Source: Dickeya lacustris (GTDB taxonomy: Bacteria; Pseudomonadota; Gammaproteobacteria; Enterobacterales; Enterobacteriaceae). From it: a stretch of DNA of 64,000 nt. Location: positions 3,038,001-3,102,000 of the forward strand of contig NZ_CP114280.1 of assembly GCF_029635795.1 (NCBI RefSeq), read 5' to 3'. Below the pieces are notes generated by a model, which did no database searches, was not told the origin of the DNA, and saw nothing but the letters and a program-made list of their open reading frames with translations. Shown here piece after piece: positions 1 through 47,312 of the stretch. The position numbers and the translations under genes were made by a program. Each line of letters opens with the position of its first letter. Position 1 is the first letter of the stretch.

Positions 1-3324
<3,324 letters not shown>

Positions 3325-3342
3325 GTCATGAGAGACTAAAAA

Positions 3343-3370: not shown

Positions 3371-3397
3371 CATTTAGCGTTGCGGATACTGATTCGT

Positions 3398-6874: not shown

Positions 6875-6889
6875 TGGGTGTGTTGCGCC

Positions 6890-7918: not shown

Positions 7919-8401
7919 GCGATTTCTCCCTGTTTCCTTTCATCGAAAAAATGAAATGTGTTTTACGCCTTAATCAATAAACCGGGCGCAGAAATAGATA
8001 GATAACTTGCCCCGAATTCTGCGGGCTGACTAATACACACGATTAATGTTAAATAAGAAAGCTAAAAAAGATTATTTCATGGTTGCTGAGGCGATATTAT
8101 TAAAAATAATCAGAATTTCTTTTTTTCTAAAACAGATTATTTTGTACGTAAATTAACAGCGGGTTTATTCTGCCATTTCGCTGATAAATGGAGCGTATTA
8201 CCAGCTACAGACTCCTTACACTGAATAATAGACTGCAATATGATGATGTGGTGGGGGCATTTGAGTATAAGTCCGGCGCATTTTCTGAACGAAACACCCA
8301 AGCGAAATACTCAAACGAAATGCCTGAACCCAATGACCTACGCAGGTATGCAATAGAGCGTGCGCTGGCACGGCATAGCGGCTTTTTCAGCCACAGTCGG
8401 T

Positions 8402-27086: not shown

Positions 27087-27162
<76 letters not shown>

Positions 27163-27550: not shown

Positions 27551-28354
27551 GTGAAGCGTATTCATCATTGTGCGTGGCATCGTTTTTTGGCGTTGTTAAC
27601 GTTTTGCCTCAGTGGTTATCAGGCGCAGGCATTGGCCAGTGACCCGTTATTGAGCACCACCTCTCACCCCGTCCCGATAGATGTCACCGCTGATAATCAG
27701 GTGCGCGGTATGTTAGTGGCTGTTGACCAGGCGACGCTCTCCAGCGATTTGGCCGGGCGTATTGTGGAGATGCCGCTCCGGGAGGGGGAGTCGTTTAAAA
27801 AAGGCGATTTACTGGCGCGTTTTGATTGCGCGATTTATCAGGCTCAACTGGCTGCCTCACAAGCGGCGGCGCGGGCGGCTGAAGCGGAATTAAACCAGAA
27901 CCAACAATTGGCGCAGTTAAAATCGGTCGGCAAACATGCGGTGGCACTCTCTGCCGCCCGCCTTGCTCAGGCGCAAGCCGAAAGTCAGGTCTATCAGATT
28001 CAAACCAGTCGCTGTCGCTTGTCGGCCCCGTTTGACGGGCAAGTCGTGAAACGGCGGGCGCAGGCTTATGAGAGTGTCCCCGCCGGTGCCCCGGTCGTCG
28101 ATGTGGTGAATAATCATAATCTGGAAATCAGCCTGCTGGTGCCTTCGCGCTGGCTGGCGACGCTGAAACCGGGAGTGGCGTTTACCTTCACACCGGATGA
28201 AACCGGCAAGCCGCTTCGTGCGCATGTCGCCAGGCTGGGCGCGCGCATTGATGAAAGCAGCCAAACGTTAAGTCTGACTGGCGTGCTTGATAGCAAAGAG
28301 AATGCCTTGATGGCTGGCATGAGTGGTTCAGCGCATTTTTCGGAGCAACCGTGA
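27551..28354 (+). CDS. Periplasmic adaptor (HlyD/RND membrane-fusion type), first gene of the secretion locus
   Basis: The GTG at 27551 gives 267 residues with an N-terminal signal peptide (VKRIHHCAWHRFLALLTF, then SGYQAQALA). The mature part is a compact membrane-fusion protein: a biotinyl-lipoyl half (VDQATLSSDLAGRIVEMPLREGESFKKGDLLARFD), a short Ala/Gln-rich helical hairpin, the second lipoyl half (CRLSAPFDGQVVKRRAQAYESV) and a beta-barrel (LEISLLVPSRWL). It has no obvious membrane anchor after processing. It would bridge inner- and outer-membrane partners. Its stop overlaps the next start by 4 bp, indicating a coupled operon. A TTG 60 bp upstream is a less likely start. Confidence 0.8.
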   Translation: MKRIHHCAWHRFLALLTFCLSGYQAQALASDPLLSTTSHPVPIDVTADNQVRGMLVAVDQATLSSDLAGRIVEMPLREGESFKKGDLLARFDCAIYQAQLAASQAAARAAEAELNQNQQLAQLKSVGKHAVALSAARLAQAQAESQVYQIQTSRCRLSAPFDGQVVKRRAQAYESVPAGAPVVDVVNNHNLEISLLVPSRWLATLKPGVAFTFTPDETGKPLRAHVARLGARIDESSQTLSLTGVLDSKENALMAGMSGSAHFSEQP

Positions 28355-29715
28355 CCCCATCCTCTCCTCTTGCTTCTGCGTCTTCCGCGTCTGAGTCTTC
28401 AGCCTCTGCGCCGACGGCCTCCAGCGAGCGCGTATTTGCCCGCTTTCTGGATATTGAACATCAGGCGCGTGCCGCCAGTACCGTTGAGGCGTTGGCCTAC
28501 TGCATTGTTAATGACAGCCAGACGTTATTTGGTTTTCGTCATGCGGCCCTGGTGATTAACGGTCGGGTGCGGGCTGTGACCGGGGTGACGCAGCCTGCGC
28601 CGCATGCGCCGTTTGTGGCATTTGTCGAACGTGCCTGCGCGCAGCGCAGCGAGGCGCAGTCACAAACCTGCGCCGTTGTTGACGCCATGACGCTTGATGA
28701 GCAAAGCCGCGCCGACTGGCAGGCATTGTCTGCCCCCGAGGTGCTATGGTCGCCGTTTAAAGACCGGCAAGGGCGCGTGTTTGGCGGTATTTGGTATGCC
28801 AAAGATACGCCGTGGCTCCCTGCTGAACACATACTGGCGGATAGACTGGCTCAGGCATTCGGCCATGCCTGGCTGGCGCTGGAGCCGCAACCGTTGTGGC
28901 GACGCGCGCGCTGGCGCTGGAAAATCGCGCTCGCTTGTCTGATGGTGGCTGGCGCTCTGTGTATTCCGGTGCGTCAGTCAGTGCTGGCTCCGGCGGAAGT
29001 GATCCCGTTTAACGGTCAGGTGATTGCCGCTCCTCTGGATGGGGTGATTCAGTCATTTGTCGTGCGGCCAAACCAGCGGGTGCGTAAAGGCGAATTGCTG
29101 GTGCGTTTTGATGACACAACGCTAAAAGCGCAGGCGGATGTGGCCGAGCGCGCGGTTAATGTGGCTGAAGCAGAGTACCGCGCCAGCGCACAGCGTGCGT
29201 TTCAGGATGCGGACTCCAAGACCCGGCTGGATTTTCTGGCCGCTCAGGTGGCGCAAAAGCGGGCCGAGCGTGACTATGCCACGGCGTTGCTGGGGCGTGC
29301 TGACGTCCGCGCCGATCGTGATGGCATCGCCGTGTTTGCCGATGATGAACGCTGGATAGGCAAACCGGTGCGTACCGGCGAGCGCTTGATGGAACTGGCT
29401 GACCCGGCCTCCGTGTCGCTGCGCATTGAACTGGATGTCGGCGATGCGATTGACCTGCCGCCGCAAGCGAATGTGACGCTATTTCTTGATAGCGACCCGA
29501 TGACGCCACACCGCGCAAGTCTGGTGCGTTCGGCATATGAGTCGGAGCTGACGCCCGCCGGGAATCTGGCGTACCGGCTTGATGCGCGTTTTAGTGATAG
29601 CGCGCCGCGTATCGGGCTGCGAGGAACGGCCAAACTGTCTGGTGATAATGTGCCGCTGGCGGTGTACCTGTTCCGTCGGCCACTGGCGGTAGTGCGTCAA
29701 TCGGTGGGGATATGA
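28351..29715 (+). CDS. GAF-like domain fused to a membrane-anchored HlyD-type adaptor
   Basis: The 454-residue product starts at GTG 28351. After a Ser/Ala-rich leader, residues about 28-180 look like a GAF-type sensory fold (TVEALAYCIVNDSQTLFGFRHAALVI ... APEVLWSPFKDRQGRVFGGIWYA ... ILADRLAQAFGHAWLAL). One membrane segment follows (WKIALACLMVAGALCIPV, about 190-207), then an HlyD adaptor: lipoyl half VIAAPLDGVIQSFVVRPNQRVRKGELLVRFDD, helical hairpin, second half RADRDGIAVFADDERWIGKPV and a beta-barrel. The GAF-like domain would be cytoplasmic and the adaptor periplasmic. The gene overlaps both neighbours by 4 bp. The GAF call is by pattern only. Confidence 0.75.
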   Translation: MTPSSPLASASSASESSASAPTASSERVFARFLDIEHQARAASTVEALAYCIVNDSQTLFGFRHAALVINGRVRAVTGVTQPAPHAPFVAFVERACAQRSEAQSQTCAVVDAMTLDEQSRADWQALSAPEVLWSPFKDRQGRVFGGIWYAKDTPWLPAEHILADRLAQAFGHAWLALEPQPLWRRARWRWKIALACLMVAGALCIPVRQSVLAPAEVIPFNGQVIAAPLDGVIQSFVVRPNQRVRKGELLVRFDDTTLKAQADVAERAVNVAEAEYRASAQRAFQDADSKTRLDFLAAQVAQKRAERDYATALLGRADVRADRDGIAVFADDERWIGKPVRTGERLMELADPASVSLRIELDVGDAIDLPPQANVTLFLDSDPMTPHRASLVRSAYESELTPAGNLAYRLDARFSDSAPRIGLRGTAKLSGDNVPLAVYLFRRPLAVVRQSVGI

Positions 29716-31817
29716 GTGAGTTATTGCCTGTACTGCGCGCCGATTTACAGTTGGTGACAGCCGCCAGCGGTCTGGATGGCGCGCCGCGATGGGTACTGTC
29801 CGATCCGGTGACGGGCCATTACTTCACATTAACGCCTTCGGCAATCCGCCTGCTGCGCCACTGGTCTTTAGGCGATCCTCAGGCGGTGCTGGCAGCGGCG
29901 AACCGTGACCCCGGTTTACCTTTACAGGAAAACGAGCTGGCGCAGTTACTGCGCTTTTTACGCACCCACGATTTGATTGCCGCCAGCGACCCGCAGCAAC
30001 GGCTGGGATATGTGTTTAAGGCGGCACACTCTCGTGTGAGCCTGTGGAAAACGCTGCTGCATCAATACCTGTTTTTTCGTATTCCGCTGTGGCGACCCGA
30101 TCCATGGCTTAATCGCTGTTGGCCGTGGTTGCAGCGGATAGGCAGGCCGTGTTTGCGCCTGTTGTTGCCCTTGATTCTGCTGTGTGGCGTGTTTTTGGTG
30201 AGCCGCGACTGGGTGCGTTATACCCATGGTTTCCCGCATTTGTTCAGTTTGCCCGGCATGATGACATTTGGCTGCGCGCTGGTTTTCGCCAAATTTGTCC
30301 ACGAGCTCGGCCATGCGTTTATGGCAAAGCGCGCCGGGTGCCGCGTACAAACCATGGGTGTCGCATTCATTGTGCTGTTTCCGCTGTTTTATACCGATGT
30401 GTCTGATGCCTGGCGCGTGAGCGATCGGCGTGCCCGCCTGTTGATTAGCGCTGGCGGTATTTTGGCTGAGTTGTCGCTGGCGGTGCTCGCCTTGCTGGTG
30501 TGGTCGCTATTGGATGAGGGCCCACTGCGTACAGCGGCCTTTATGCTATCCGGCGTGACGTGGATAACCACACTGATGGTGAACCTGAATCCGCTGATGC
30601 GCTTCGATGGCTATTTTCTGTTGAGCGACGCCTGGCAGGTGGAGAATTTGCAGTCACGCGCTTACGCATTATGTCGCTGGCGGCTGCGAGAGCTGCTGTT
30701 TGGCTATGGCCTGGCTGCGCCGGAAACCTGGTCGCCCGCCATGCAGCGTAAACTGCTGCTCTGGGGTTATGCGTCATGGGTGTGGCGTTTTTTCCTGTTT
30801 TTCGGCATTGCGCTGGTGGTGTATCACTTTTTTATCAAAGTTATCGGTATTGGTCTGATGATGGTGGAAATCGGCTGGTTTATTGCCTTGCCAATACTTA
30901 AAGAAGCTCATATCTGGTGGTCTATGCGACAGTTGTCACACCCGTTTACCCTGTTGAGAACGTTGTTCATCGCCAGCATCGTCGCGCTGCTGCTGTGCTA
31001 CCCGTGGCGCGGCAGTGTGCGTATTCCTGCGGTGCTGGGCGCGGAGAATGTCAGCGTGCTGTATGCCCCGGTTAGCGCGCAGGTGCTGTCCGTGCAGGTG
31101 ACGGAAGGCCAGCGCGTACAGGCTGGCGACGTGCTGATGACGCTCTATTCGTCCGATCTGGAATACCGCTTATCCATTGAGCGCCAGCAAATAGCCGTAT
31201 TGCAGCAGAAATTATTGCGCGGCGCGGTGCGTCAGGAAACCGCCAGCGAAACGGAAGTCATGAGTCGGCAACTGGCTGAGTCATTGGCGCGTTATCGCGG
31301 CCTGATGGCACAGCGTCAGCGCCTGACTATCATCGCACCGCAGGCCGGTCAGGTCAGGGATATTGCCTGGGCGCTGACGCGCGATCGCTGGCTGACCACC
31401 GATTTGCCTTTGCTGCGGGTGGTTGACATCGGCGCGGGTAAACTCCAGGGCTATGTGCCCGAGCAGTCTCTCAGCCGCGTGCATTCCGGCCAGCAAGGGG
31501 TCTTTATTGCCGATGACCCGATGTTCCCCAAGGTGACAGTGAAGCTTGAGGCGATCGCGCCTACCGGTAGCCCTTATCTTCAGCAGGATATTCTCTCGTC
31601 TGATCATGGCGGGCCGGTTGCGGTACGGCGTAACAGTGAGCGCTTGCCTCAGCCCACTCAAGCCCAGTACGGCGTGCGGTTTGTCACGCTAGAGGCGCGG
31701 TCACTTCCCGTCCAACCGCTACGCGGCAGCGTCATGCTGGACGGGGAAAAAGAGTCGATGCTTGGTGCCGTGTGGCGTCGGCTCATGGCGCTGGGAATTC
31801 GGGAAAGCGGGTTTTGA
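29712..31817 (+). CDS. PqqD-like / M50 site-2-protease / HlyD fusion membrane protein
   Basis: This 701-residue protein appears to combine three modules. Residues about 10-95 resemble a PqqD-type winged-helix (WVLSDPVTGHYFTLTPSAIRLL ... LLRFLRTHDLIAA). Residues about 145-430 form a polytopic membrane core with zinc-metalloprotease motifs HELGH at 197-201 and NPLMRFDG at 293-300, both intact as in site-2 proteases. Residues about 435-690 are periplasmic adaptor-like (VSVLYAPVSAQVLSVQVTEGQRVQAGDVLMTLYSSD, a helical hairpin, then LTIIAPQAGQVRDIAW). It should therefore be an active intramembrane protease carrying its own adaptor. It takes the place of the ABC ATPase expected in a type I system. 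It is third in the operon, overlapping the previous gene by 4 bp. Confidence 0.8.
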   Translation: MSELLPVLRADLQLVTAASGLDGAPRWVLSDPVTGHYFTLTPSAIRLLRHWSLGDPQAVLAAANRDPGLPLQENELAQLLRFLRTHDLIAASDPQQRLGYVFKAAHSRVSLWKTLLHQYLFFRIPLWRPDPWLNRCWPWLQRIGRPCLRLLLPLILLCGVFLVSRDWVRYTHGFPHLFSLPGMMTFGCALVFAKFVHELGHAFMAKRAGCRVQTMGVAFIVLFPLFYTDVSDAWRVSDRRARLLISAGGILAELSLAVLALLVWSLLDEGPLRTAAFMLSGVTWITTLMVNLNPLMRFDGYFLLSDAWQVENLQSRAYALCRWRLRELLFGYGLAAPETWSPAMQRKLLLWGYASWVWRFFLFFGIALVVYHFFIKVIGIGLMMVEIGWFIALPILKEAHIWWSMRQLSHPFTLLRTLFIASIVALLLCYPWRGSVRIPAVLGAENVSVLYAPVSAQVLSVQVTEGQRVQAGDVLMTLYSSDLEYRLSIERQQIAVLQQKLLRGAVRQETASETEVMSRQLAESLARYRGLMAQRQRLTIIAPQAGQVRDIAWALTRDRWLTTDLPLLRVVDIGAGKLQGYVPEQSLSRVHSGQQGVFIADDPMFPKVTVKLEAIAPTGSPYLQQDILSSDHGGPVAVRRNSERLPQPTQAQYGVRFVTLEARSLPVQPLRGSVMLDGEKESMLGAVWRRLMALGIRESGF

Positions 31818-32078
31818 TGTAGAGAAGCAAGGGCTTTTTATGAGCAATATGGTTAATTTTATTAAATTGTTTTTTATGTGATGCTCCGAAAAGTAATTTA
31901 TTTGTGTTAGCGGAAAATCTCTCCTGTCTGGGCTATGTTTTTATTGTTAATTGAAATTTATTTCAATCTATTCAGAGCATGAACATTGCTTTTATTTATC
32001 TGGTTTTCCCCAGATACATTAATAATCATTCAATAAATTATATAGTTAAGTGTTTTTCAATGGCGAGGAGAGAGATCC
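31818..32078. promoter_or_regulatory. AT-rich spacer with a palindrome, upstream of the tail-collar gene
   Basis: The gap in the otherwise tight locus is strongly AT-rich. It contains the perfect 16-bp palindrome TTGAAATTTATTTCAA at 31951-31966, a plausible operator. It suggests the substrate genes have their own promoter, separate from the exporter operon. No gene is seen. Confidence 0.45.
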
Positions 32079-32915
32079 ATGATGCACGCTCGAAAAATGT
32101 TTACGCAAACAGCAATAACGGTAGCAATTATTGGTGGCGCTCTGTGTCCGCAGATTGCCTCAGCCTGTGGCCCGGAGGAATATATTGGTTCCATCTGTTA
32201 TACCGCAGCACAATTTTGTCCTTCCGGCTTTGTGCCAGCGGATGGGCGTTCACTGACCATTCAGCAGAATAACGCGCTCTATTCCTTATTAAGCACTGTC
32301 TACGGTGGCGATGGCAAAACAACGTTTAATGTGCCTGATTTACGTGGTCGTGTGGCGGTAGGGCAGGGGTCTATTACGGAGGCAGATTTCAGGAGTATTG
32401 GGACAAAAGCAGGCAATACCCGAGTGATGCTGGCATCCAATCAGATAGCTCCGCATCTCCACCCGGCAACCTTCACGCCCAGTACGACGCCAACAACCGA
32501 TGTGACTGTTCCGGCACAGACGGGAAATTTAGGTGTGACAGCGTTGCTGCCACTTGTGACGGCCGTGAGTGGCAGTGCAACGGCGACGCCTACACCGGCG
32601 ACGGGAGCGAATAATTTTCTCGGTGCTTTAACCGGCAAGGCAATTAATGGTTTATCAAGTTACAACGTCAACTTTACTGGGGTGTTCTCGCAAACGAGAC
32701 CTAGCCCGGTGACGGCTTCAGCGCCGGTTGATACTACCGTGACAGGTACGGCCTCAACACCCTCATTCACTTTCAAAGTACCAACTGGCGGGACGGTTGC
32801 TGTGGGGGCGAATATTCCGGCAGCAACACAGGCCCCTGTTGATGTTCGGCAGCCTTCGCTGACGTTGTTGCCGTGTATTGCCGTTGATGGTTTGTATCCA
32901 CCAAGAGATTATTGA
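32079..32915 (+). CDS. Sec-exported tail-collar-domain protein
   Basis: The 278-residue product has a signal peptide (residues 1-29, FTQTAITVAIIGGALCPQIASA, cut before CGPEEYIG). Residues about 33-95 match the phage tail-collar domain (YIGSICYTAAQFCPSGFVPADGRSL ... NALYSLLSTVYGGDGKTTFNVPDLRGRVAVGQG), also found in microcystin-dependent-type proteins. The rest is Thr/Pro/Val-rich and beta-prone. Five cysteines in the mature protein (CGPEE, SICYT, FCPSG, LPCIA and one neighbour region) suggest disulfides. It is not part of a prophage: no other phage genes surround it. It sits between the exporter genes and the giant surface protein, so I infer a surface or periplasmic accessory role. GAGGAGAGAG is a strong ribosome site. 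An alternative ATG lies 3 bp downstream. Confidence 0.8.
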   Translation: MMHARKMFTQTAITVAIIGGALCPQIASACGPEEYIGSICYTAAQFCPSGFVPADGRSLTIQQNNALYSLLSTVYGGDGKTTFNVPDLRGRVAVGQGSITEADFRSIGTKAGNTRVMLASNQIAPHLHPATFTPSTTPTTDVTVPAQTGNLGVTALLPLVTAVSGSATATPTPATGANNFLGALTGKAINGLSSYNVNFTGVFSQTRPSPVTASAPVDTTVTGTASTPSFTFKVPTGGTVAVGANIPAATQAPVDVRQPSLTLLPCIAVDGLYPPRDY

Positions 32916-33035
32916 GTGAATTCTGGCAAGGAGGTGTGGCTTCCTTGCCAGATTTTTTATGTGGGTCACATTCGTCAGAGTAGTGCTATCAGTGGGTGCT
33001 ATGTCGTTAATCATCGGTCAATATCGGAGTTTTTT

Positions 33036-36000
33036 ATGCTGTGGCGTAAATTCTTTAAAAGGCAGGCTCGCCAGTTAACCGCTGATTCTGTAACGGCGGC
33101 AGAACCGTTTATCTGCGGTTATGTTTTGGAAGCCCGTATGCTATTTGATGGTGCGGTTGCAGCTACCGTTGAGCAGACGACAAACACCGCTGAACAAACG
33201 GCAGACACACACACAGCGACGAAAGCGGTCGCCACAGAGTCAACCCAGTCTGACAGCAGCCATGCTACTCAGAATGATGCGGCGCATACCTCGGATAGCA
33301 CGGATGTTGCGGCGAGTGCGGTGACGGCGGCACATAAAGAAGTGGTGTTTATCGATACCTCGGTGGCGGGGTATCAGACGCTGGTCGCCAACGTTCCAGC
33401 CGGGATGGACGTGGTATTGCTGGACGGCAGCAAAGATGGTTTGACGCAGATGGCCGTATGGGCGCAAACACACAGCGGTTACGATGCTATTCATGTCCTC
33501 AGTCATGGTAGTGAGGGAGCCGCACAACTCGGTACCCTGACGCTAAACAGCACCACGGCTCTTGCCCGGGCTAATGATTTGGCGACGCTCGGTGCAGCTC
33601 TGAATGCCGACGGTGATCTCTTGCTGTATGGCTGTGATGTGGCGCAGGCCTCCGGGCAGCAGTTTGCCTCGCTGCTGGCGCAGTTGACTTCGGCGGATGT
33701 CGCGGCGTCAACCAATCCAACAGGGGCATCGGCGCTCGGTGGTGATTGGGTCACAGAATTTCATACCGGAGAGATTGGCGTACAGGATTTGGCTATCACC
33801 AGCTACACCAGTCTGTTGTCGGTGAGTGGCACCTCGGTCACGGTGACCGCGCCCAACGATCCGAGTACAGAGTACATATCCTTGACGTCGGTAAGTAGCG
33901 GGGTTGAATTTGATCTCGACGGTAATAACAATACGGCTGATATTAACCCGACCAATAACACAGTGACGATTACTTACAACCCTGGTGCAAACCTAGGGGG
34001 GAGTTTTGATCTGGTGTTTCAGGGAGGCAATCTCGACCATTTCACTGGTATCACCAAAACATCCAGTAGCGGGACAAACGCGAACGACGTGACAGCCTCC
34101 GTTTCCGGTAAAACCATCCATATTACTGTTAATGACGCGAACGGCGGGTTTAGTGGCGGGACGCTCGTCTTCACCTTCACTTCCGTCGATGTATCAACGG
34201 ATACCGCACCTACCGTTACCGGGAGCGCAACCAACCCCACCTATACCGAGAATGGCTCTGGCGTGAGCCTGTTTTCAGGCGTATCCGCCTCAACCCATGA
34301 CAGCGGGCAGACGTTTAGCGGCGCGGTGTTTACCGTCAGCAATGTGGCGGATACCACTGAATATCTGACCATTAACGGCGTGGGCGTTGCCCTTACTAAC
34401 GGCAATAGCCTCTCTCTCGGCAGTGGTTACGGTACGGCCAGCGTCAGCAAGAGTGGCAATACGGCGACGGTGACGCTAACCGGCGCCTCCCTCTCGGATG
34501 CCAATATGAGCACGTTATTGTCGGGGATGACCTATCGCAACAGCAGCGAAAACCCGTCAGTGACATCACGCACGGTGACGTTAAGCCAGTTAACCGACAG
34601 CGGCAGTTCGAATAATACGGCGTCGCCCGGCTTTAGCAGCCAGGTGACGGTTCATGCCGTCAATGACGCGCCGACGGATATCTCGCTCACATCAGGCAGC
34701 ATTGGCCAGTCGTTGGGCAGTAATGGCACGGTGGGCACGCTCAGTGCGACGGACGTTGACTCCAGCTCCTTTACTTATACGTTGGTGTCAGGCACTGGCA
34801 GCACAAACAACAACCTGTTTACTATCACCGGCAACACGCTGAAGGTGAATAATGCCGCCACCATGACGCCTGGGGCTTACTCGGTGCGGGTACAGGTGAG
34901 TGATGGCACGGACACCTATCAAAAAGTCTTTTCCGTCACGGTCAGTGATGATGTCAGGCCGACATTTGACGTTGCGCCTGCGGCCAGCAATATCAGCGGC
35001 AGTGGTTTTGACCTTTCCGCCAGCATCGATGAAGCGGGCACCCTTTATTATGTGATTGTCGCTGACGGGGCCTCAGCCCCGAGCGTGAGTCAGATTATCG
35101 CCGGGCAGAATGCCTCGGGGGTGACAGCAATCGGTTCTGGCAGCCAGGTCGTCAGCAGCGCGCCCTATACCACGTCCTTTAGCGTGACGGGGCTGAATGG
35201 CGCAACCAGCTACGATGTGTACATGGTGGCAAAAGACAGCGCCAACAATCAGATACTCAGCGCCACCAAGGTCGATGTCACCACCTCGTCCAATTCGGCC
35301 CCTGTTTTTAGTAACCTCAACGGTGGCGCAACCTTTACTGAAAAGGGCAGCGCGGTCGTGATAGATAGCAACGTCGCCGTCGCCGATACCGAGCTGGATG
35401 CCCTGAGTGGCGGCCTTGGCAACTACAGCGGTGCATCGCTCACTCTGGCGCGTAATGGCGGGGCAAACAGCCAGGATAGCTTCGGCAATAGCGGGCTGTT
35501 GGGGGCGCTGACTGCGGGACAAAGCTTTACCTACAACGGAACGGCGGTCGGTAACGTCACCACCCATTCGGGCGGTACACTGGCGCTGACGTTTAATGGC
35601 AACGCCACCTCGGCGATAGTGAATGCGGTGCTGCAATCGCTGACCTATGCCAACAGTTCTGATAATCCGCCAGCCAGCGTGACACTTAACTGGGTGTTCA
35701 ATGATGGCGCGCTTAACAGCAGTGGCACCAATCAGGCGATAGTGAGTATTACGCCAGTTAACGACACACCGACCATCAGCAATATGTCGGTCAGCAAAAC
35801 CTTTAATGAGGATAGCGCCCAGACCTTTAGCGCCTCGGATTTCGGTTTCAGCGATGTGGATAGCGGTGACACGCTGCAAGCCGTGACCATCGTCACCGCG
35901 CCGACCGCCGGTGAGCTGTTTATTGACGCCAACAGCGATGGGGTGCGTGGCGTCGGCGATACGCTTATCAGTGATGGTGCGACGGTCAGTGCGTCGGATA

Positions 36001-39000
36001 TCAGCAAGCTGACCTTTCGCCCGGCAGCTAATGCCAATGGCGTCGGCTATGCCAGCTTTACCTGGAAAGTCAGCGACGGTACGGTGTTATCTAACGATGT
36101 CGGCACCATGACCCTCGATGTGACGGCGGTCAACGACGCACCGGTTATCAGCGCGACGTCGGTCAGCAAAACCTTCAACGAGGATAGCACCCAGACGTTC
36201 AGCGCATCCGACTTTGGTTTCAGTGACGTAGACAGCGGCAATACGCTGCAATCCATCACCATTGTCAGCGCACCGACGGCAGGCGAGCTGTTTATTGATG
36301 CCAACAGTGACGGGGTGCGCGGCGGGGGCGATACCCTTATCAGCAATGGCTCGGTCGTCAGCGCCGCCGATATCGGTAAATTAACCTTCCGCCCGGAAGC
36401 CAATGCCAACGGAGCAAGCTACAGCAACTTTACCTGGCAAGTCAGTGACGGCACGGCATTGTCCGCCAATACCGGCACCATGACGCTGAACGTTACCCCC
36501 ATTAACGATGCACCAACGCTGAATAATTCGGCGACGGCGACACTGACCGGCACCAATGAAAATACCATGTCGGCGGCCACGGCCGTGACCTTGCTGTTGA
36601 GTCAGGCTGGTTATGGCGATGTGGACAGTGGCGCACAAATCGGCCTTGCGATTACCAGCAGCGTGGGTCGTGGCGGCTGGCAATACTCTACCGACAGTGG
36701 TGCCAACTGGTTTAACCTCGGGTCGGTATCGGCGTCTTCGGCGCTGTTACTCAACTCATCAGCGCAACTTCGCTATGTCCCAGACGGTGCAAACGGTGAA
36801 ACCGCGAGCCTGAATTTCCGGGCCTGGGATCAGACATCCGGCACGGCGACGGCGGGGGCCAGCCGTGGCCTGGCGGATACCGCCACGACCGGTGGCAGCA
36901 GCGCCTTCTCGACCAACAGCGCGCTGGCTTCACTGGCGGTGACGGACGTGAATGACACGCCGACGTTAAGCAATGCTATCGGCGCTCAAAGCGTGGTGAA
37001 GGAGACGCCTTTCAGCTTTACCGTGCCGTCGAATACTTTTGCTGATGTTGACAGCGGCGATGTGCTGACCTTAAGCGCTACGCAGGCAGACGGCTCGGCG
37101 CTGCCGGGCTGGCTCAGTTTCAACCCGGCCACGCGTACCTTCTCCGGCACGCCGGGCAGCAGCGATGTCGGCAACCTGAGTATTCGGGTGACGGCGACCG
37201 ATGGCAGCAACGCCTCGGTGAGCACCACCTTCGGCCTTGCGGTCAATAACAGCAACCAGCCGCCGGTGCTGTCCACGCCTGTTGCCGATCAGTCGGTGGC
37301 GCAAAACGGCGCATTCAGCTTTACCGTGCCGGCCAACACCTTCACCGATGCCGACAGCGGCGATGTGCTGACTTTAAGTGCTACGCAGGCAGACGGCTCG
37401 GCGCTGCCGGGCTGGCTCAGTTTCAACCCGGCCACACGTACCTTCTCCGGCACGCCGGGCAATGGCGATGTCGGCAACCTGAGTATTCGGGTAACGGCGA
37501 CCGATGGCAGCAACGCCTCGGTGAGCACCACCTTTGCGCTGGCGGTGAGCAACGTCAATGACGCGCCGGTAGTGAGCGGCACGCTGGCGGCGCAGTCGGT
37601 GGCGCAAAACGGCGCATTCAGCTTTACCGTGCCGGCCAACACCTTCACCGATGCCGACAGCGGCGATGTGCTGACCTTTAGCGCTACGCAGGCAGACGGC
37701 TCGGCACTGCCGGGCTGGCTCACCTTCAACCCGGCCACGCGCACCTTCTCCGGCACACCGGGCAGCAGCGATGTGGGCAACCTGAGTATTCGGGTGACGG
37801 CGACCGATGGCAGCAACGCCTCGGTGAGCACCACCTTTGCGCTGGCGGTGAGCAACGTCAATGACGCGCCGGTCGTGAGCGGCACGCTGGCGGCGCAGGC
37901 AGTGGTGCAAAATGGCGCATTCAGCTTTACCGTGCCGGCCAACACCTTCACCGACGCCGACAGCGGCGATGTGCTGACCCTGAGTGCTACGCAGGCAGAC
38001 GGCTCGGCGCTGCCGGGCTGGCTCAGTTTCAACCCGGCCACGCGTACCTTCTCCGGCACGCCGGGCAGCAGCGATGTGGGCAACCTGAGTATTCGGGTGA
38101 CGGCAACCGATGGCAGCAACGCCTCGGTGAGCACCACCTTTGCGCTGGCGGTGAGCAACGTCAATGATGCGCCGGTAGTGAACGGCACGCTGGCGGCGCA
38201 GGCAGTGGCGCAAAACGGCGCATTCAGCTTTACCGTGCCGGCCAACACCTTCACCGATGCCGACAGCGGCGATGTGCTGACCTTAAGCGCTACGCAGGCA
38301 GACGGCTCGGCGCTGCCGGGCTGGCTCAGTTTCAACCCGGCCACGCGTACCTTCTCCGGCACGCCGGGCAGCAGCGATGTCGGCAACCTGAGTATTCGGG
38401 TGACGGCAACCGATAGCAGCAACGCCTCGGTGAGCACCACCTTTGCGCTGGCGGTGAGTGCGGCAACGGTTGAGGCCCCGAATATCACCCAACTTCTTCA
38501 GGACAGTAGCAATACGCTCTCCAGTGTCACCGGCACGTCCGTAACGACATTACCCCCGGTGGGATCTGCCGGGAATGCCGCGCCGGTGGCGTTGGGCACA
38601 TTGATTACCTCTTCCTCTTTAGGGGCGGTCGATAACCGCGCAGAGAGCGCTAGCACCACAATTACCTCGACGATTTTTCAATCGCCCCAACGTACCTCAA
38701 CCGCTGGGGGGGCAGTGGTCAGCCAACTGGCCAGTTCATTTGCACAACTGACAAACGGCGCGGGTGCGAGCCTGTTTGATAGCGCCTTGGGATCATTTCC
38801 GAGTTTTAACACCGGTGGCGCGTTAGGGGGCAGTTCGTCGTTGTCGGGCTTGTTCTCTGGTATCCATCTGCCCTCATTGTCACCGATGGCGGTGTTCTCT
38901 GGCGGCAGCTGGCGTGATGTCAACTCGACCAGTCGCATGACGACGGCTTCGCTGCGCGCGGATGATTCAGCGCAAGCGGTTGCCGCGCAGTTCGCTGTGG

Positions 39001-39128
39001 GGTTGGATGTGCAACTACAGCAGATTGGCGCACAAGAGTGGCAGCGCTTATCGGTGATTGAGCAGGCATTACAGGAGATAGCGGCCGCAGAACCGTATCA
39101 CGATGAGGGGTCGCAACAGCAAGGGTAA
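33036..39128 (+). CDS. Giant DUF4347 / cadherin-type repeat surface protein (2030 residues)
   Basis: The ATG at 33036 follows GGAG by 6 bp; earlier in-frame codons lack a ribosome site. There is no Sec signal peptide. Residues 31-40 (LEARMLFDGA) match the N-terminal LEPR-type motif of giant surface proteins. Residues about 100-265 are DUF4347, with VLSHGSEG (His157) and LLYGCDVA (Cys200). Then come beta-rich cadherin/Ig-like modules, many ending in NDAP or NDTP: two 124-residue copies (about 919-1165) and five 101-residue CADG-type copies (about 1310-1808, TLSATQADGSALPGWLSFNPATRTFSGTPG). The last 220 residues are Ser/Ala/Gly-rich and non-repetitive. No RTX GGxGxD nonapeptides are visible. 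I infer an exported adhesin-like substrate of the flanking exporter genes. Confidence 0.85.
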   Translation: MLWRKFFKRQARQLTADSVTAAEPFICGYVLEARMLFDGAVAATVEQTTNTAEQTADTHTATKAVATESTQSDSSHATQNDAAHTSDSTDVAASAVTAAHKEVVFIDTSVAGYQTLVANVPAGMDVVLLDGSKDGLTQMAVWAQTHSGYDAIHVLSHGSEGAAQLGTLTLNSTTALARANDLATLGAALNADGDLLLYGCDVAQASGQQFASLLAQLTSADVAASTNPTGASALGGDWVTEFHTGEIGVQDLAITSYTSLLSVSGTSVTVTAPNDPSTEYISLTSVSSGVEFDLDGNNNTADINPTNNTVTITYNPGANLGGSFDLVFQGGNLDHFTGITKTSSSGTNANDVTASVSGKTIHITVNDANGGFSGGTLVFTFTSVDVSTDTAPTVTGSATNPTYTENGSGVSLFSGVSASTHDSGQTFSGAVFTVSNVADTTEYLTINGVGVALTNGNSLSLGSGYGTASVSKSGNTATVTLTGASLSDANMSTLLSGMTYRNSSENPSVTSRTVTLSQLTDSGSSNNTASPGFSSQVTVHAVNDAPTDISLTSGSIGQSLGSNGTVGTLSATDVDSSSFTYTLVSGTGSTNNNLFTITGNTLKVNNAATMTPGAYSVRVQVSDGTDTYQKVFSVTVSDDVRPTFDVAPAASNISGSGFDLSASIDEAGTLYYVIVADGASAPSVSQIIAGQNASGVTAIGSGSQVVSSAPYTTSFSVTGLNGATSYDVYMVAKDSANNQILSATKVDVTTSSNSAPVFSNLNGGATFTEKGSAVVIDSNVAVADTELDALSGGLGNYSGASLTLARNGGANSQDSFGNSGLLGALTAGQSFTYNGTAVGNVTTHSGGTLALTFNGNATSAIVNAVLQSLTYANSSDNPPASVTLNWVFNDGALNSSGTNQAIVSITPVNDTPTISNMSVSKTFNEDSAQTFSASDFGFSDVDSGDTLQAVTIVTAPTAGELFIDANSDGVRGVGDTLISDGATVSASDISKLTFRPAANANGVGYASFTWKVSDGTVLSNDVGTMTLDVTAVNDAPVISATSVSKTFNEDSTQTFSASDFGFSDVDSGNTLQSITIVSAPTAGELFIDANSDGVRGGGDTLISNGSVVSAADIGKLTFRPEANANGASYSNFTWQVSDGTALSANTGTMTLNVTPINDAPTLNNSATATLTGTNENTMSAATAVTLLLSQAGYGDVDSGAQIGLAITSSVGRGGWQYSTDSGANWFNLGSVSASSALLLNSSAQLRYVPDGANGETASLNFRAWDQTSGTATAGASRGLADTATTGGSSAFSTNSALASLAVTDVNDTPTLSNAIGAQSVVKETPFSFTVPSNTFADVDSGDVLTLSATQADGSALPGWLSFNPATRTFSGTPGSSDVGNLSIRVTATDGSNASVSTTFGLAVNNSNQPPVLSTPVADQSVAQNGAFSFTVPANTFTDADSGDVLTLSATQADGSALPGWLSFNPATRTFSGTPGNGDVGNLSIRVTATDGSNASVSTTFALAVSNVNDAPVVSGTLAAQSVAQNGAFSFTVPANTFTDADSGDVLTFSATQADGSALPGWLTFNPATRTFSGTPGSSDVGNLSIRVTATDGSNASVSTTFALAVSNVNDAPVVSGTLAAQAVVQNGAFSFTVPANTFTDADSGDVLTLSATQADGSALPGWLSFNPATRTFSGTPGSSDVGNLSIRVTATDGSNASVSTTFALAVSNVNDAPVVNGTLAAQAVAQNGAFSFTVPANTFTDADSGDVLTLSATQADGSALPGWLSFNPATRTFSGTPGSSDVGNLSIRVTATDSSNASVSTTFALAVSAATVEAPNITQLLQDSSNTLSSVTGTSVTTLPPVGSAGNAAPVALGTLITSSSLGAVDNRAESASTTITSTIFQSPQRTSTAGGAVVSQLASSFAQLTNGAGASLFDSALGSFPSFNTGGALGGSSSLSGLFSGIHLPSLSPMAVFSGGSWRDVNSTSRMTTASLRADDSAQAVAAQFAVGLDVQLQQIGAQEWQRLSVIEQALQEIAAAEPYHDEGSQQQG
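35755..36510 (+). repeat. Two 372-bp (124-residue) repeats within the giant gene
   Basis: The segment containing SVSKTFNEDS starts equivalently at 35793 and 36165, 372 bp apart. Both copies continue through FGFSDVDSG, TAGELFIDANSDGVRG and LTFRP. Confidence 0.85.
36950..38460 (+). repeat. Five near-identical 303-bp (101-residue) repeats within the giant gene
   Basis: TTCAGCTTTACCGTGCC recurs at 37011, 37314, 37617, 37920 and 38223, exactly 303 bp apart. Copies 2-5 are nearly identical in DNA, copy 1 somewhat diverged. This indicates recent amplification or gene conversion and likely copy-number variation between strains. Confidence 0.95.
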
Positions 39129-39217
39129 TGCGACCGGGAAATGATGAACGCATAGCAATTCATTGAGAACAACACATAAAAAACAATAACAGTCAGTTCA
39201 GGAACAGGAGTGGGATC

Positions 39218-40726
39218 GTGTCAAACTGTCGGAAATTCTTTAGCCTCAGCGTGATGGTGATGGCCATGACCGGTTGTGCCGTTACCAGTCAGCCGCTATC
39301 AAAAGAGCAGCGTGAACAGCACATCGCGCAGGATAAGGTCGCCATGTTCAGCCAGCAGGAGCCGGTGACAGCACCGATTACGCTGTATGACGCGATGGCA
39401 CGGGCACTGAAATATAACCTCGAAGCGCGGCTCAAGGTGATGGAGCAGGCTCTGTCGCAGCAACAGCTGGAGCTGGCCCGCTATGATATGTTGCCGCAGG
39501 TGGCGATGTCGGCCGGGTATGTCGGGCGCAGCAATACCAGTGCTTCGAGCAGCCGCAGTATCTCCAGTGGCCAGCAATCTCTCGAACCGTCCACCTCGCT
39601 TGACAGAAACCGGGGTGTGGCCGATTTGACGATGGTCTGGAACGTACTGGACTTTGGTGTCAGCTACGTTGGTGCGAAGCAAAAGGCTGACCAGCGCTGG
39701 ATTGCGGATGAGCGCAAACGCAAAGTGGTGCATACCATTTTGCAGGACGTGCGTTCGGCATACTGGCGCGCGGTCGCTGCCGAGCGTTTGCTTGGACGCA
39801 TCGACAGCCTGATTGCGCGCGTGAATCAGGCGCGTGAAGCCAGTGAGCACATGAGTTCTCAGCAGGTTGGCGACCCGGTGGAGGCGTTGACGTATCGCCG
39901 CGCGCTGATTGAAGCGGTGCGCCAACTGGAAGAACAGCGCCGTGCCTTGTCGCTGGCAAAAACCGAGCTGGCGACGCTGATGAACCTGCCGCTCGATACG
40001 CCCTACACGCTAGCCTTGCCAGACAACCACGAGCTGGCGGTGCCTGCGCTGAATGTGGATGTGAACACGCTGGAGCAGGCGGCATTACTGAGTCGCCCTG
40101 AGCTTCGCGAGCAAGAGTATCAGGTACGTATCCACGCCGCCGAAACCCGTAAAACCCTATTGCGTATGTTGCCGGGGCTGGAGGTCAGCGCTGGCGGCCA
40201 TTATGACAGTAACTCTTTTATGGTGAATCAGAGCTGGGCGGATGTTGGCGTCAAAGTGACCTGGAACCTGTTTAATCTGTTCTCCGGGCCTGCCGCTTAT
40301 CAGACGGCGCAGGCTGGCGAGCGCGTCTCACAAGTGCAGCGGCAAGCGATGTCGCTCGCTATCATGGCGCAGCTATATATTGCCCGGGCCAATTTCAACG
40401 AAGCGCTGCGACAGTATAAAACCAGCGCGGAATTGCGCGACCTTGACGGCCAGATAGCCGAACAGCTGAGAAACCGTTACAAAGCCAACAGCATTGGCGA
40501 ACTGCAACTGATTCAAGGCGAACTGAACGCGCTGAATGCGAATTTGCGTCAGGATCTGGCGTATGCGGAACTGCGCAATACCTACGGGCAGATCCTCTCG
40601 ACCGTCGGGTTGGATTTGCTGCCGAAAACGCTGCCGTCTACCCGCCTTGCTGATTTGAGCCAGGCATTGCGCCAGTCAGAAGCGCAGTGGCAGCAGGGCA
40701 AAATCAGCGCGTTGCAGTCATTCTAA
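39218..40726 (+). CDS. TolC-family outer-membrane lipoprotein
   Basis: The 502-residue product starts at GTG 39218 after an AGGAG ribosome site. It has a short lipoprotein signal (FFSLSVMVMAMTGC, lipid on Cys20). Two outer-membrane efflux repeats follow: ITLYDAMARALKYNLEARLKVMEQALSQQQ... DLTMVWNVLDFG, and the second with RPELREQEYQVRIHAAETRKTLLRMLPGLEVSAGG ... VTWNLFNLFSGP. This is a channel-tunnel protein for the adaptors encoded upstream. It is the last gene of the locus, 89 bp after the giant gene, and is followed by a strong terminator. Confidence 0.88.
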   Translation: MSNCRKFFSLSVMVMAMTGCAVTSQPLSKEQREQHIAQDKVAMFSQQEPVTAPITLYDAMARALKYNLEARLKVMEQALSQQQLELARYDMLPQVAMSAGYVGRSNTSASSSRSISSGQQSLEPSTSLDRNRGVADLTMVWNVLDFGVSYVGAKQKADQRWIADERKRKVVHTILQDVRSAYWRAVAAERLLGRIDSLIARVNQAREASEHMSSQQVGDPVEALTYRRALIEAVRQLEEQRRALSLAKTELATLMNLPLDTPYTLALPDNHELAVPALNVDVNTLEQAALLSRPELREQEYQVRIHAAETRKTLLRMLPGLEVSAGGHYDSNSFMVNQSWADVGVKVTWNLFNLFSGPAAYQTAQAGERVSQVQRQAMSLAIMAQLYIARANFNEALRQYKTSAELRDLDGQIAEQLRNRYKANSIGELQLIQGELNALNANLRQDLAYAELRNTYGQILSTVGLDLLPKTLPSTRLADLSQALRQSEAQWQQGKISALQSF

Positions 40727-43836: not shown

Positions 43837-44655
43837 CTAAAGTACCTTATTTAGAAAGCTGGCGGTGCGCGGATGGGCGGGGTGATTAAGCACCTGATGC
43901 GCGTCGCCGCTTTCCACGATTTTGCCATCCACCATGAACACCACCCGATCGGCCACTTCGCGGGCAAAACCTATCTCATGGGTGACGATCACCATCGTGA
44001 CGCCCGACCGCGCCAAATCTTTAATCACGTCCAGCACCTCGCCCACCAGTTCCGGGTCGAGCGCGGAGGTCGGTTCGTCAAACAACATCACTTTTGGGTT
44101 GAGCGCCAGCGCCCGGGCAATGGCAATACGCTGCTGTTGACCGCCGGACAGGTGGCGCGGGTAGGCATGCGCTTTGTGGCGTAGCCCCACTTTGTCCAGC
44201 AACGCCAGCGCCACATGCTGGGCTTTGGCGCGGCTGTACAAGCGGTGCGCGCGCGGCGCTTCGATAATGTTTTCCAGCACCGTCAGGTGGGGAAACAGGT
44301 TGAAATTCTGAAAGACGTAGCCGACGCCGATGCGCTGGCGCAGGATGTCGTGCTCTTTCAGTTCATACAGCGTATCCCCCGCGCGGCGGTAGCCGATGTA
44401 GTCACCGTCAATACGGATGGTGCCTTCATCCACCCGCTCCAGGTGGTTGATGGTGCGCAACAGCGTGGACTTACCGGAGCCGGACGGCCCGATAATCACC
44501 GTTACCGAGCCGGGCGGCAGCGTCAGGTTAATATTGTCCAGCGCCCGGTGCGTACCGAACCATTTGCCCACCCCGTGAATATCTATCCGGCCTTGTTCGC
44601 TGATGGCGCGCGGCGCGGTACGTGGAACCGAGTAGAGATCAATGGCTTCAGACAT
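43837..44655 (-). CDS. Polar-amino-acid-type ABC transporter ATPase
   Basis: The 272-residue ATPase has Walker [10 protein letters not shown] (about 57-65), a Q-loop ([12 protein letters not shown]), the signature [15 protein letters not shown], Walker B VMLFDEP and the switch VTHE. It belongs to the GlnQ/HisP type. It is the last gene of a minus-strand operon that begins with a flavin monooxygenase at 49600, so the imported compound is probably oxidised by that enzyme. Confidence 0.93.
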
Positions 44656-44673
44656 CGTGCTTCTCCCTGAAAA

Positions 44674-45675
44674 TCAATGCGGGCGACGCGCTATGCGTCG
44701 TTGAAAGATATACCGTTGAAAGATATACCGTTGAAAGAGGCGTCGTTGGACTATGTGCCGCTCAACGATCCGCCACAGCGGGTGGGGCGGTATTTCACGC
44801 ACGGCACCCCGTGCCACATAGCGCTCGACGAAATACTGCAACACCGACAGCACGCTGGTGAGAACCAGATACCAGATGGCCGCTACCATCAGCAGCGGAA
44901 TGACCTGTTGGGTGCGGTTGTAAATCACCTGTACGGTGTAAAACAGCTCGGGCAGCGCCAGCACGTATACCACCGAGGTGCCTTTGGCGAGGCTGATGAT
45001 TTCGTTGAAGCCGGTCGGCAGTATTGAGCGCAGCGCCTGCGGCAAAATAATGCGCCAGGTACGCCGATACCCCGGCAGGCCGAGTGCGGCTGCCGCCTCA
45101 AACTGCCCGGCATCGACGCCGAGAATGCCGCCGCGAATAATTTCTGCGGTGTAGGCCGATTGCACCAGCGTCAGCCCCAGCACCGCCACGGCAAACGGGC
45201 CGAGCACATCGATGGTGGGGTAGCGGAAAAACTCGAAAGATGTGAAAGGGATGCCCAGCGCCAGCGCGTCATACAGGTATGAAAAATTGTAGAGAATAAT
45301 CAGCACCAGAATCAACGGCAGCGATCGAAACAGCCAGATGTACAGCCACGCCAGCGTACTGAGCAGCGCGGACGATGACAGCCGGGCCAGCGCCAGCGCG
45401 GTGCCCGCAATAATGCTAAACAGGGTGCCGAGTAGCGTCAGCAGCAGCGTGCGCCCGAGCCCTTCCAGAATCACCGGATGAAAGAAATAACTGGCGAATA
45501 CCGGCCACTCCCAGCGCTCATTGAGTGCCACGGACTCAACGATACCGGCGAGAATAAACAGCGAAAAGAACGCACCCGCGATACGCAGCGGGTAACGCGC
45601 TGGCACGACGCGCAATGGCGTTGCCGGGGCATCGGCCAGGCGCTCGGGCGCTGAAGCATGGAGAGATGAGGTCAT
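44674..45675 (-). CDS. Polar-amino-acid-type ABC transporter permease
   Basis: The 333-residue permease has an N-terminal extra membrane segment (AGAFFSLFILAGIVESVAL), then the HisM/GlnP-type core (ILEGLGRTLLLTLLGTLFSIIAGTALALAR ...) and the EAA loop FEAAAALGLPGYRRTWRIILPQALR that docks the ATPase. The last 35 residues are unusual: a basic, repeated tail (RLFQRYIFQRYIFQRR) encoded by 15-bp tandem repeats, probably a recent extension. It lies 18 bp before the ATPase gene. Confidence 0.9.
   Translation of the reverse strand: MTSSLHASAPERLADAPATPLRVVPARYPLRIAGAFFSLFILAGIVESVALNERWEWPVFASYFFHPVILEGLGRTLLLTLLGTLFSIIAGTALALARLSSSALLSTLAWLYIWLFRSLPLILVLIILYNFSYLYDALALGIPFTSFEFFRYPTIDVLGPFAVAVLGLTLVQSAYTAEIIRGGILGVDAGQFEAAAALGLPGYRRTWRIILPQALRSILPTGFNEIISLAKGTSVVYVLALPELFYTVQVIYNRTQQVIPLLMVAAIWYLVLTSVLSVLQYFVERYVARGAVREIPPHPLWRIVERHIVQRRLFQRYIFQRYIFQRRIARRPH
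44701..44760. repeat. 15-bp tandem repeat inside the permease 3' end
   Basis: TTGAAAGATATACCG occurs at 44701-44715 and 44716-44730, with degenerate copies at 44731-44745 and 44746-44760. In the permease frame it encodes a five-residue unit (about IFQRY). Confidence 0.9.
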
Positions 45676-45688
45676 GAGCGTATACCTT

Positions 45689-45756
45689 TTATATTTTTAG
45701 CCGTCTTAAACCTTTATCCGTTTTAAACCTTTATCCGTTTTATACCTTCACCCGTT
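45689..45756. repeat. 17-bp tandem repeat, four copies, spanning the stop codon of the GNAT gene
   Basis: Copies at 45740-45756, 45723-45739, 45706-45722 and 45689-45705. On the minus strand the first contains the last codons and TAA stop of the acetyltransferase; the following copies keep a TAA at the same place and decay with distance. Confidence 0.9.
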
Positions 45757-46270
45757 CTGGCGGCGTGGCGCGCGCAGGCGTCGGTTTATGCAGCGGTTTA
45801 CGAAACGGCAGCCGACCATCGTGCGGAGGCAGGCTGTAATATTCGCTGTCGATGGTGGTATCAAACTGCGGCTGATAGCCTGCGCTGAGGTAAAGTCCGA
45901 CCGCCTCCGGCTGGCGAAAGCCGGTGGTCAGGAAGACCTCGCTGTAGCCGAGCCTGCGGGCGTGATGTTCCAGTTCGCGCAGCACCCGTCTGGCCAGCCC
46001 CTGACGTCGCAGGGTTTTATCCGTCCAGATGCGTTTTAGCTCGGCGGTTGTGGCGTCATAACGTTTGAATGCGCCGGTGGCGATGGGGCGCTCATCGCGC
46101 AGCAGCACGATAAAAATACCGTCAGGCTGCTGATAAAGTCCTTGCGGCTCTGGTTCGTGGTTATCGAAGTAATCGCCGTAGCGCTGTCGGTATTCGTCAA
46201 ACAGCCCATCAATAATGGGCACGATACGCGCCTCTTGCGGGTCAGTGATGATGAAACGCTCGTCAGACAT
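45740..46270 (-). CDS. GNAT-family N-acetyltransferase
   Basis: The 176-residue protein has the acetyl-CoA pyrophosphate loop RRQGLARRVLRELEHHARRLG (about 88-108) after beta-strand ELKRIWTDK, and the closing FRQPEAVGLYLSAGY. It is within the ABC/monooxygenase operon, between the second binding protein and the permease. It may acetylate the imported substrate or a product; this is inferred from context. Confidence 0.88.
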   Translation of the reverse strand: MSDERFIITDPQEARIVPIIDGLFDEYRQRYGDYFDNHEPEPQGLYQQPDGIFIVLLRDERPIATGAFKRYDATTAELKRIWTDKTLRRQGLARRVLRELEHHARRLGYSEVFLTTGFRQPEAVGLYLSAGYQPQFDTTIDSEYYSLPPHDGRLPFRKPLHKPTPARATPPERVKV

Positions 46271-46320
46271 GCTCTGCTCCTTATGCGGTCCTACCGGTTG
46301 CCCTCTAGGAGGCCGGGCGA

Positions 46321-47268: not shown

Positions 47269-47312
47269 AGCATATTCCTTGGAAATAAATATCTCGGTAT
47301 GAAACGCGGCGG

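Follow-up and report, generated by a model that had tools for sequence, protein, structure and literature searches.

A putative exporter of motif-bearing giant proteins built around an M50-HlyD fusion in Dickeya lacustris and its relatives, with no ABC gene in the operon

How might a giant surface protein leave the cell when the operon that encodes it supplies the adaptors and outer-membrane factor of a type I secretion system but no ATP-binding cassette (ABC) gene? The question is raised by six genes of Dickeya lacustris at 27551-40726 of a 64,000-nt stretch of contig NZ_CP114280.1 (3,038,001-3,102,000), which we call the window; all positions are those of the window unless a contig or another locus is named, and L- and G-numbers denote surveyed loci and genomes. 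The third gene encodes a fusion of a PqqD-like region, an M50 protease, and an HlyD adaptor (hereafter the fusion), and the fifth encodes a giant whose N-terminus bears a short motif that recurs on giants beside such fusions. The locus is probably a dedicated exporter of this motif-bearing giant. An open reading frame (ORF) listing and Pfam/NCBIfam scans confirmed all six ORFs, co-directional on the + strand, with the following features.

27551..28354, + strand: HlyD-family periplasmic adaptor (HlyD_3 1.9e-16; RND_mfp TIGR01730 130 bits, over its cut-off of 94.9)
28351..29715, + strand: GAF-like and HlyD adaptor (HlyD_3 2.4e-11; by eye, one hydrophobic segment separates its two parts)
29712..31817, + strand: PqqD-like/M50 site-2-type protease/HlyD fusion, 701 aa (HlyD_3; Peptidase_M50, PF02163, 4.3e-8)
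30300..30314, + strand: HExxH zinc motif of the M50 domain, residues 197-201 (invariant columns H197, E198, and H201)
32079..32915, + strand: phage-tail-collar-domain protein, accessory (Collar 1.1e-21; N-terminus signal-peptide-like by eye)
33036..39128, + strand: giant surface protein, 2030 aa, the putative substrate (DUF4347, cadherin/tandem-95, and He_PIG immunoglobulin-like repeats)
33126..33154, + strand: address motif LEARMLFDGA, beginning at residue 31 from the ATG (pattern match at contig 3071126-3071154)
33342..33791, + strand: DUF4347 domain (1.5e-47, residues 143-292 of the 2070-aa ORF)
37011..38458, + strand: 303-bp tandem repeat, 4.8 copies, He_PIG domains (repeat and Pfam scans)
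39218..40726, + strand: TolC/OEP outer-membrane factor (OEP 9.7e-39; lipobox-like N-terminus MTGC by eye)

An earlier note on this DNA had described six co-directional genes, three of them overlapping by 4 bp, a 2030-residue DUF4347/cadherin-type protein among their products, and no ABC ATPase in the locus, and on each of these points it was accurate. The 4-bp overlaps lie at two junctions, HlyD/GAF-like-HlyD and GAF-like-HlyD/fusion, and three genes are therefore coupled. The length of 2030 aa is counted from the ATG at 33036, the longest ORF of the giant being 2070 aa from a GTG at 32916; for the first adaptor, whose N-terminus looks signal-sequence-like by eye, an alternative TTG start at 27491 is possible. 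There is no ABC gene among the ORFs of the six-gene stretch. The ABC gene nearest to the operon (43837-44655, minus strand) is grouped with a permease and a solute-binding protein and is an importer component, so that a type I system with a local ABC protein was rejected.

The fusion and the motif of its giants

We surveyed 398 Pseudomonadota genomes, counting a fusion at E<=1e-30. The fusion is present in 89 genomes and DUF4347 in 94, with both in 75, the fusion only in 14, DUF4347 only in 19, and neither in 290 (Fisher p 5e-48, uncorrected for relatedness). The co-occurrence of the M50-HlyD fusion with DUF4347/LEPR giants that the earlier note had proposed to look for is thus found. The fusions themselves form two branches (see below); in the count by locus, from which 7 loci were dropped for short upstream sequence and 3 (L151, L214, and L216) for weak or broken fusions, 122 loci belong to the window's branch (82 diverse and 40 close). 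Within 3.5 kb upstream of the fusion, one or more HlyD genes were counted in 76 of the 82 diverse loci and two or more in 65; TolC is present in the stretch in 58, and a same-strand ORF of at least 900 aa in 62. Fusion, DUF4347/LEPR giant, and TolC therefore not only co-occur but are co-encoded, in keeping with the dedicated exporter that had been proposed.

Reading the N-termini of the giants revealed a shared motif, LE[PAQ]R-x-x-[FL]-D-[GA]-A, which is an addition beyond the earlier note. As a DNA pattern it was found in 60/398 genomes, against 3/398 for a reversed-pattern control. Fifty-seven of the 60 positive genomes carry the fusion; two of the other three look like chance matches, and the third is a 57%-complete genome with DUF4347. 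The pattern is thus present in 57/89 genomes with the fusion versus 3/309 without it. Because this split holds both in DUF4347-positive genomes (motif in 54/75 with the fusion versus 1/19 without) and in DUF4347-less genomes (3/14 versus 2/290), the motif tracks the fusion and not the DUF4347 domain, and it is a better marker of the fusion than DUF4347 is.

The same association is seen locus by locus. At the fusion loci of the window branch, the N-terminus is visible in 67 DUF4347 giants, and 63 of them bear the motif; many of the 67 come from Pseudomonas and are not independent. Three of the four misses are near forms (LEQRIAFDAA, LERRIAFDAA), and the fourth is L151, a broken locus of Candidatus Symbiopectobacterium. 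L151 appears to be decaying, its HlyD, M50, and giant genes each being split into several ORFs. The motif also occurs on giants beside fusions that lack a DUF4347 profile match (L068, L159, L185, L188, and L249). At fusion-less loci it was found in 1/8 DUF4347 giants, and in 0/5 of those from fusion-less genomes. The single case, LEPRYMFDAA at L109 (7211 onward), lies in an unlinked DUF4347 giant of genome G016, in the upstream piece of a gene interrupted by a stop inside DUF4347, and G016 has a fusion elsewhere. At L106, which belongs to one of the fusion-less genomes, the ORF start falls within DUF4347, and none of the same-strand frames contains the motif between 900 bp before and 450 bp after that point.

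The N-termini that carry the motif do not appear to be signal peptides, judging from their hydropathy. In 67 motif giants (64 of the window branch and 3 of the SecA branch described below), the median maximum 12-residue hydropathy is 1.47, versus 2.36 for the TolC proteins of the same stretches (n=59), and a maximum of at least 2.0 is reached by 3/67 giants versus 50/59 TolC proteins. The window's giant contains no RTX nonapeptide. The end of the protein is visible in 25 motif giants: 19 of these likewise contain no nonapeptide, and none has as many as five. As a separate observation, the DUF4347 giants at the fusion-less loci L104, L105, and L107 begin differently, some of them with what resembles an ordinary signal peptide, which suggests that proteins with this domain can also be exported by another route.

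The fusion has its closest database relative in Dickeya (89% identical) and is the only M50-HlyD fusion of its own genome. Zinc-site residues (HExxH and a distal Asp) are invariant in 22/22, 50/50, and 20/20 fusions, across both branches, and many residues outside HExxH are invariant as well. The fusion is matched by the daptide-protease model NF041824 (1.7e-41, below the model's cut-off) and by the YydH/LiaK model NF058609 (1.4e-9, below the curated cut-off). With these M50-type leader proteases of ribosomally synthesized and post-translationally modified peptides (RiPPs) it shares the M50 core and the N-terminal region match, but it is fused to HlyD, is linked to a giant rather than a peptide, and stays below the curated cut-offs. 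An hhalign comparison of the window and SecA branches aligned them end to end (probability 100, 692 columns), and an AlphaFold2 (AF2) model of the fusion predicts a beta3-alpha3 domain at the N-terminus, a membrane part made of helices, and an HlyD part that resembles MacA. The alignment and the predicted fold agree in suggesting that the N-terminal part is a PqqD-like domain. Fold-search matches listed for the fusion were HlyD-type and biotinyl-domain proteins, all to the same HlyD part, the PqqD and M50 membrane parts being unmatched among those listed.

All of the first three genes encode an HlyD_3 domain, and none of the three proteins exceeds the type I HlyD model cut-off of 208.65. The AF2 model of the GAF-like-HlyD adaptor (mdef2b544bc18) has a predicted local distance difference test score of 91.9, and the fold-search matches listed for it were HlyD-type adaptors only. 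The labels GAF-like and PqqD-like had been given to the second and third proteins by the earlier note. Neither domain has a Pfam match in the window's own proteins; in relatives, GAF (PF01590, 9.5e-10) is matched in L088 and PqqD in 14/20 SecA-branch fusions.

A sister branch with a SecA-like ATPase

In the loci of the most distant fusions (~25% identical), the next gene encodes a ~670-aa SecA-like ATPase with SecA_DEAD (5e-98), SecA P-loop, and SecA_PP_bind domains; the three such proteins scanned fall below the cut-off of every SecA/SecA2 model matched. At least 32 of the 398 genomes hold this paralogue (picked by eye as matches reaching query residue 660 or beyond), and the fusion is present in all 32. 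The gene adjoins the fusion in 20/20 regions fetched for it (L199-L218, selected for holding it; at L216 a contig edge leaves just the end of the fusion, and at L214 the fusion is split) and in 8/11 SecA-branch regions fetched for the fusion. A tree of 116 fusions, built by a quick method with L214, L216, L110-L151, and L189 left out, resolves a 29-row and an 87-row branch with a support of 100 each (Shimodaira-Hasegawa-like approximate likelihood ratio test, SH-aLRT), and the window lies in the latter. The SecA-like gene accompanies 26 members of the 29-row branch, 18 of them chosen for it, and is missing from L083, L084, and L090; it was found in none of the 87-row branch, in 0/122 window-branch loci, and nowhere in the window. 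A 650-aa ORF of L084 scores 120 bits to the SecA profile but has no Pfam match at 0.001 and was not counted. L083 and L090 sit on long tree branches, and their giants keep LEPRLLFSA and MEPRLLLSAE.

The giants of this sister branch carry a motif of their own, LExR..LS[GA][ED]. All 15 DUF4347 giants fetched from SecA-bearing genomes have [LM]E[PEQ]R, followed in 14 by x-[LM]-L-S-[GA]-[ED] (7 of the 15 identified by regular expression and 8 by eye, the latter including MEPR forms and LEPRMLFAAD of L233). A further case, L242, has IEPRILLSAD by eye. Five control giants from genomes without the SecA-like gene (L234-L238) all have LEPRxLxD[GA]A or the near form LEPRLMYDAS. Since most SecA-bearing genomes also hold window-branch fusions, the pairing of motif flavor with branch rests on position: in G006, G014, G065, G105, and G117, giants with frames of 6,562-14,920 aa appear to end no more than ~450 bp upstream of the SecA-type operon, and in G061 the giant would end ~3.8 kb upstream. 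The DUF4347 open frames in genomes with the SecA-type module reach 14,920 aa (G006), 11,649 aa (G014), and 10,907 aa (G304).

The SecA-bearing branch is already in print, as the earlier note had cautioned that parts might be. In the accessible part of their paper, Kamneva, Poudel, and Ward (2015; PMC4452313) describe loci in which a secondary SecA_DEAD protein is encoded together with GAF-HlyD, M50, and HlyD proteins and sometimes OEP, remark on the missing ABC protein, and suggest SecA as the ATPase and the M50 protein as the pore; that part calls the broader biological role of the module completely unknown, names no substrate, and does not contain the terms LEPR and giant. The locus in the window is best read as a variant of that module that lacks both a SecA-like and an ABC gene. 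The two share a homologous M50-HlyD fusion, GAF-HlyD (GAF by comparison with L088) and HlyD partners, and the lack of an ABC gene in the locus; they differ in that neither the window nor the 122 loci contain a SecA-like gene and in that likely substrates and their motif are identified here, relative to what the accessible text reports. The literature searched, with most subscription papers, bioRxiv preprints, and supplements outside its reach, yielded no account of the SecA-less branch, the motif, the giants, or the type-I-free genomes described below, and no link between the LEPR naming and an M50-HlyD machine. With accessory Sec (SecA2), the sister branch has in common that its ATPase is a SecA paralogue, but this ATPase scores below the model cut-offs in the three proteins scanned and is coupled to HlyD genes, and no second SecA was found in the window's genome.

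What might drive export

The docking, clipping, route, and energy source that we infer would fit together as follows. In place of an ordinary signal peptide, the 2030-aa giant would carry the N-terminal address LExR-x-[ML]-[FL]-D-[GA]-A. In the cytosol, the fusion's PqqD-like domain may dock this address, a role suggested by the facts that RiPP recognition elements bind leader peptides and that the M50 core matches those of the daptide and YydH/LiaK leader proteases. Within the membrane, the active site of the M50 domain would then clip the address segment or gate entry, and the three HlyD-type adaptors (HlyD, GAF-HlyD, and M50-HlyD) together with the TolC lipoprotein would pass the unfolded chain on to the cell surface. 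The push at the inner membrane would be supplied by housekeeping SecA/SecYEG, perhaps aided by the proton-motive force, rather than by an ABC exporter; Sec machinery is favored by analogy, because the next gene of the sister module encodes a SecA-like ATPase. Taken whole, the statement that the locus is a dedicated one-substrate exporter, a SecA-less sister of the SecA module with a Sec-type motor, has in our estimation an even chance of being right. We put forward only tentatively, as something short of an even chance, a fuller version, in which a widespread exporter free of both ABC and dedicated SecA proteins uses its PqqD-like domain to read and clip an LExRxxFD[GA]A tag, RiPP leader logic launches proteins of 1,000 to >10,000 residues, and the SecA sister uses LExRxxLS[GA][ED], tag and motor having diverged together.

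Several observations weigh against this proposal, in addition to the ABC proteins considered below. Thirty-two of the 89 fusion genomes lack the strict DNA pattern, and variants explain only part of them; the counts include related genomes, so that p-values are overstated. The LEPR-8K model NF012209, which describes 'LEPR-XLL' giants with the same type of N-terminal motif, does not match the window's giant, whose motif reads LEAR, and its best match in the genome is elsewhere, at 12.1 bits against a cut-off of 17. The accessible part of PMC10868602 reports an RTX region at the C-terminus of a Vibrio LEPR-XLL giant, so that classical type I export may serve LEPR proteins as well. The window's fusion has no PqqD Pfam match, nor do any of 22 window-branch fusions at E<=1. 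As to the motor, the genome search gave one SecA match and no second in the window's own genome, so that a Sec role in this branch rests on analogy, and in SecA-branch genomes the housekeeping SecA is accompanied by a second one, possibly a sign that the housekeeping protein does not suffice.

The alternative that survives best, although we consider it unlikely, is that the membrane domain of the fusion is itself the channel, driven by proton-motive force, with no nucleotide-driven motor in the window branch. This would agree with the pore role suggested for the M50 protein in the accessible text of PMC4452313, with the many invariant residues of the fusion outside HExxH, and with the clustering of neighbors in the window branch, where no conserved ATPase emerged beyond a mixed ABC cluster (14 loci; 6/18 ORFs on the fusion's strand). 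It sits poorly with the SecA-like ATPase of the sister branch.

Quite unlikely, in our view, is that the giant is a classical type I substrate, with an unlinked LapB- or PrtD-type ABC protein as motor and the fusion only processing or retaining it. The window's genome does hold unlinked ABC proteins of LapB type (864 bits) and PrtD type (812 bits) elsewhere. Of 149 stretches, 8 of which have no fusion, 39 contain ABC-profile ORFs, 44 in all, and an ABC ORF of some kind lies in 16/82 diverse and 20/40 close window-branch stretches, those of the close loci being mostly one Pseudomonas neighbor several kb upstream. Ten of these ORFs were scanned: one is not ABC, two are membrane-fused exporters, and the rest are ATPase-only, several of them importer-like. 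The exporters are a 721-aa membrane-fused ABC protein encoded with a 455-aa HlyD protein upstream of the M50 operon at L132 (a Pseudomonas fluorescens strain, 890-4409) and a 565-aa one on the opposite strand beside an HlyD-like ORF at L078 (genome G034, 5247-8200). The ABC ORFs near the fusion are nevertheless of mixed kinds, with no single kind conserved across the diverse loci, and no ABC exporter is conserved beside the fusion. The search for a linked ATPase that the earlier note had suggested therefore has a divided outcome: a SecA-like ATPase is linked, but only in the sister branch, and an ABC protein is not conserved. Separately, a ~300-aa ABC ATPase and an extra HlyD gene (~356-393 aa) recur in the first 1-6 kb of the Pseudomonas loci L112-L146, several kb upstream of the operon.

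The type I alternative was also addressed at the level of genomes. In 53 of the 89 fusion genomes, mostly near complete, the LssB model was searched, with PrtD and type I HlyD models searched on 16 genomes. Forty-five of the 53 have an LssB-model match at 1e-100, 29 of them over the cut-off, a loose threshold that also admits MsbA-like proteins. In the other eight, all drafts (completeness 87% for G176 and 95% for G088) in which the HlyB model TIGR01846 was not searched, there was no LssB-model match, no PrtD-type ABC protein over the cut-off, and no type I HlyD at 1e-20; five of these carry a motif-bearing giant (G023, G213, and G298 by the pattern, and G064 and G088). An unlinked type I motor is therefore not generally needed. 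The earlier suggestion that the M50-HlyD protein replaces or works beside an unlinked motor is narrowed accordingly, with the reservation that the window's own genome has two candidates. For type I secretion we take HlyB-HlyD-TolC and LapB-LapC-LapE with LapA adhesins as the systems to compare. The locus resembles them in its HlyD-type adaptors, TolC, and giant repeat protein, and differs in having no ABC gene, in being found in genomes where no type I ABC protein was detected (8/53), in its N-terminal motif, in its three adaptors, and in a giant that lacks the RTX nonapeptides of the C-terminal signal region, as do 19 of the 25 end-visible motif giants.

It is improbable, and ranks behind both alternatives above, that the giant reaches the periplasm by Sec alone while the M50-HlyD, HlyD, and TolC proteins act only at the outer step or sense the giant. 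Site-2 proteases often act on Sec remnants, and by eye the N-termini of the operon's TolC and collar protein are of the Sec type. The hydrophobic signal that such a route calls for is, however, wanting in the motif giants, as the comparison with TolC makes plain, and it is some fusion-less DUF4347 giants (L104 and L105, by eye) that look Sec-type instead. That the three HlyD-type genes and TolC form a small-molecule efflux pump with the giant as a chance neighbor, for which the first adaptor's best score to an RND adaptor model might speak, is highly improbable and was rejected on co-occurrence, since the operon has no pump gene, 75/89 fusion genomes hold DUF4347, the motif tracks the fusion, and 62/82 diverse loci have the long same-strand ORF.

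Neighboring genes and meaning for the family

The operon is flanked on one side by an orn-like exonuclease gene and a tRNA-Gly(gcc) gene (27087-27162) and on the other by an opposite-strand chemotaxis receptor gene; the tRNA gene, directly upstream, is a possible insertion point for the locus. Farther along, the minus strand at 43837-49600 encodes the ABC importer ATPase, permease, and solute-binding protein along with a luciferase-like monooxygenase (48227-49600), perhaps a sulfur-compound uptake cluster. A phage origin for the collar gene was rejected in favor of an accessory gene, since in the neighbor survey collar genes lie mostly near close-branch fusions and are not conserved across the family. 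Tail-collar proteins of ~180-280 aa are often encoded on the opposite strand between fusion and giant in many Pseudomonas-type loci (L043, L044, L048, L049, and L111-L149), and an acetyltransferase-like ORF (~171 aa, named by eye) lies near the fusion in five loci (L043, L044, L048, L049, and L172).

Both branches of the M50-HlyD family are here given a short address tag and a probable class of substrate, and a large branch that has no linked motor is distinguished. The cargo, the signal reader, and the motor of an HlyD/TolC conduit without an ABC protein thereby become testable, and the SecA-like ATPase of the sister branch hints, by analogy, at how export may be powered in the window branch. 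Fusion and motif together offer a simple way to seek the exporter of many giant proteins that are annotated only by their repeats.

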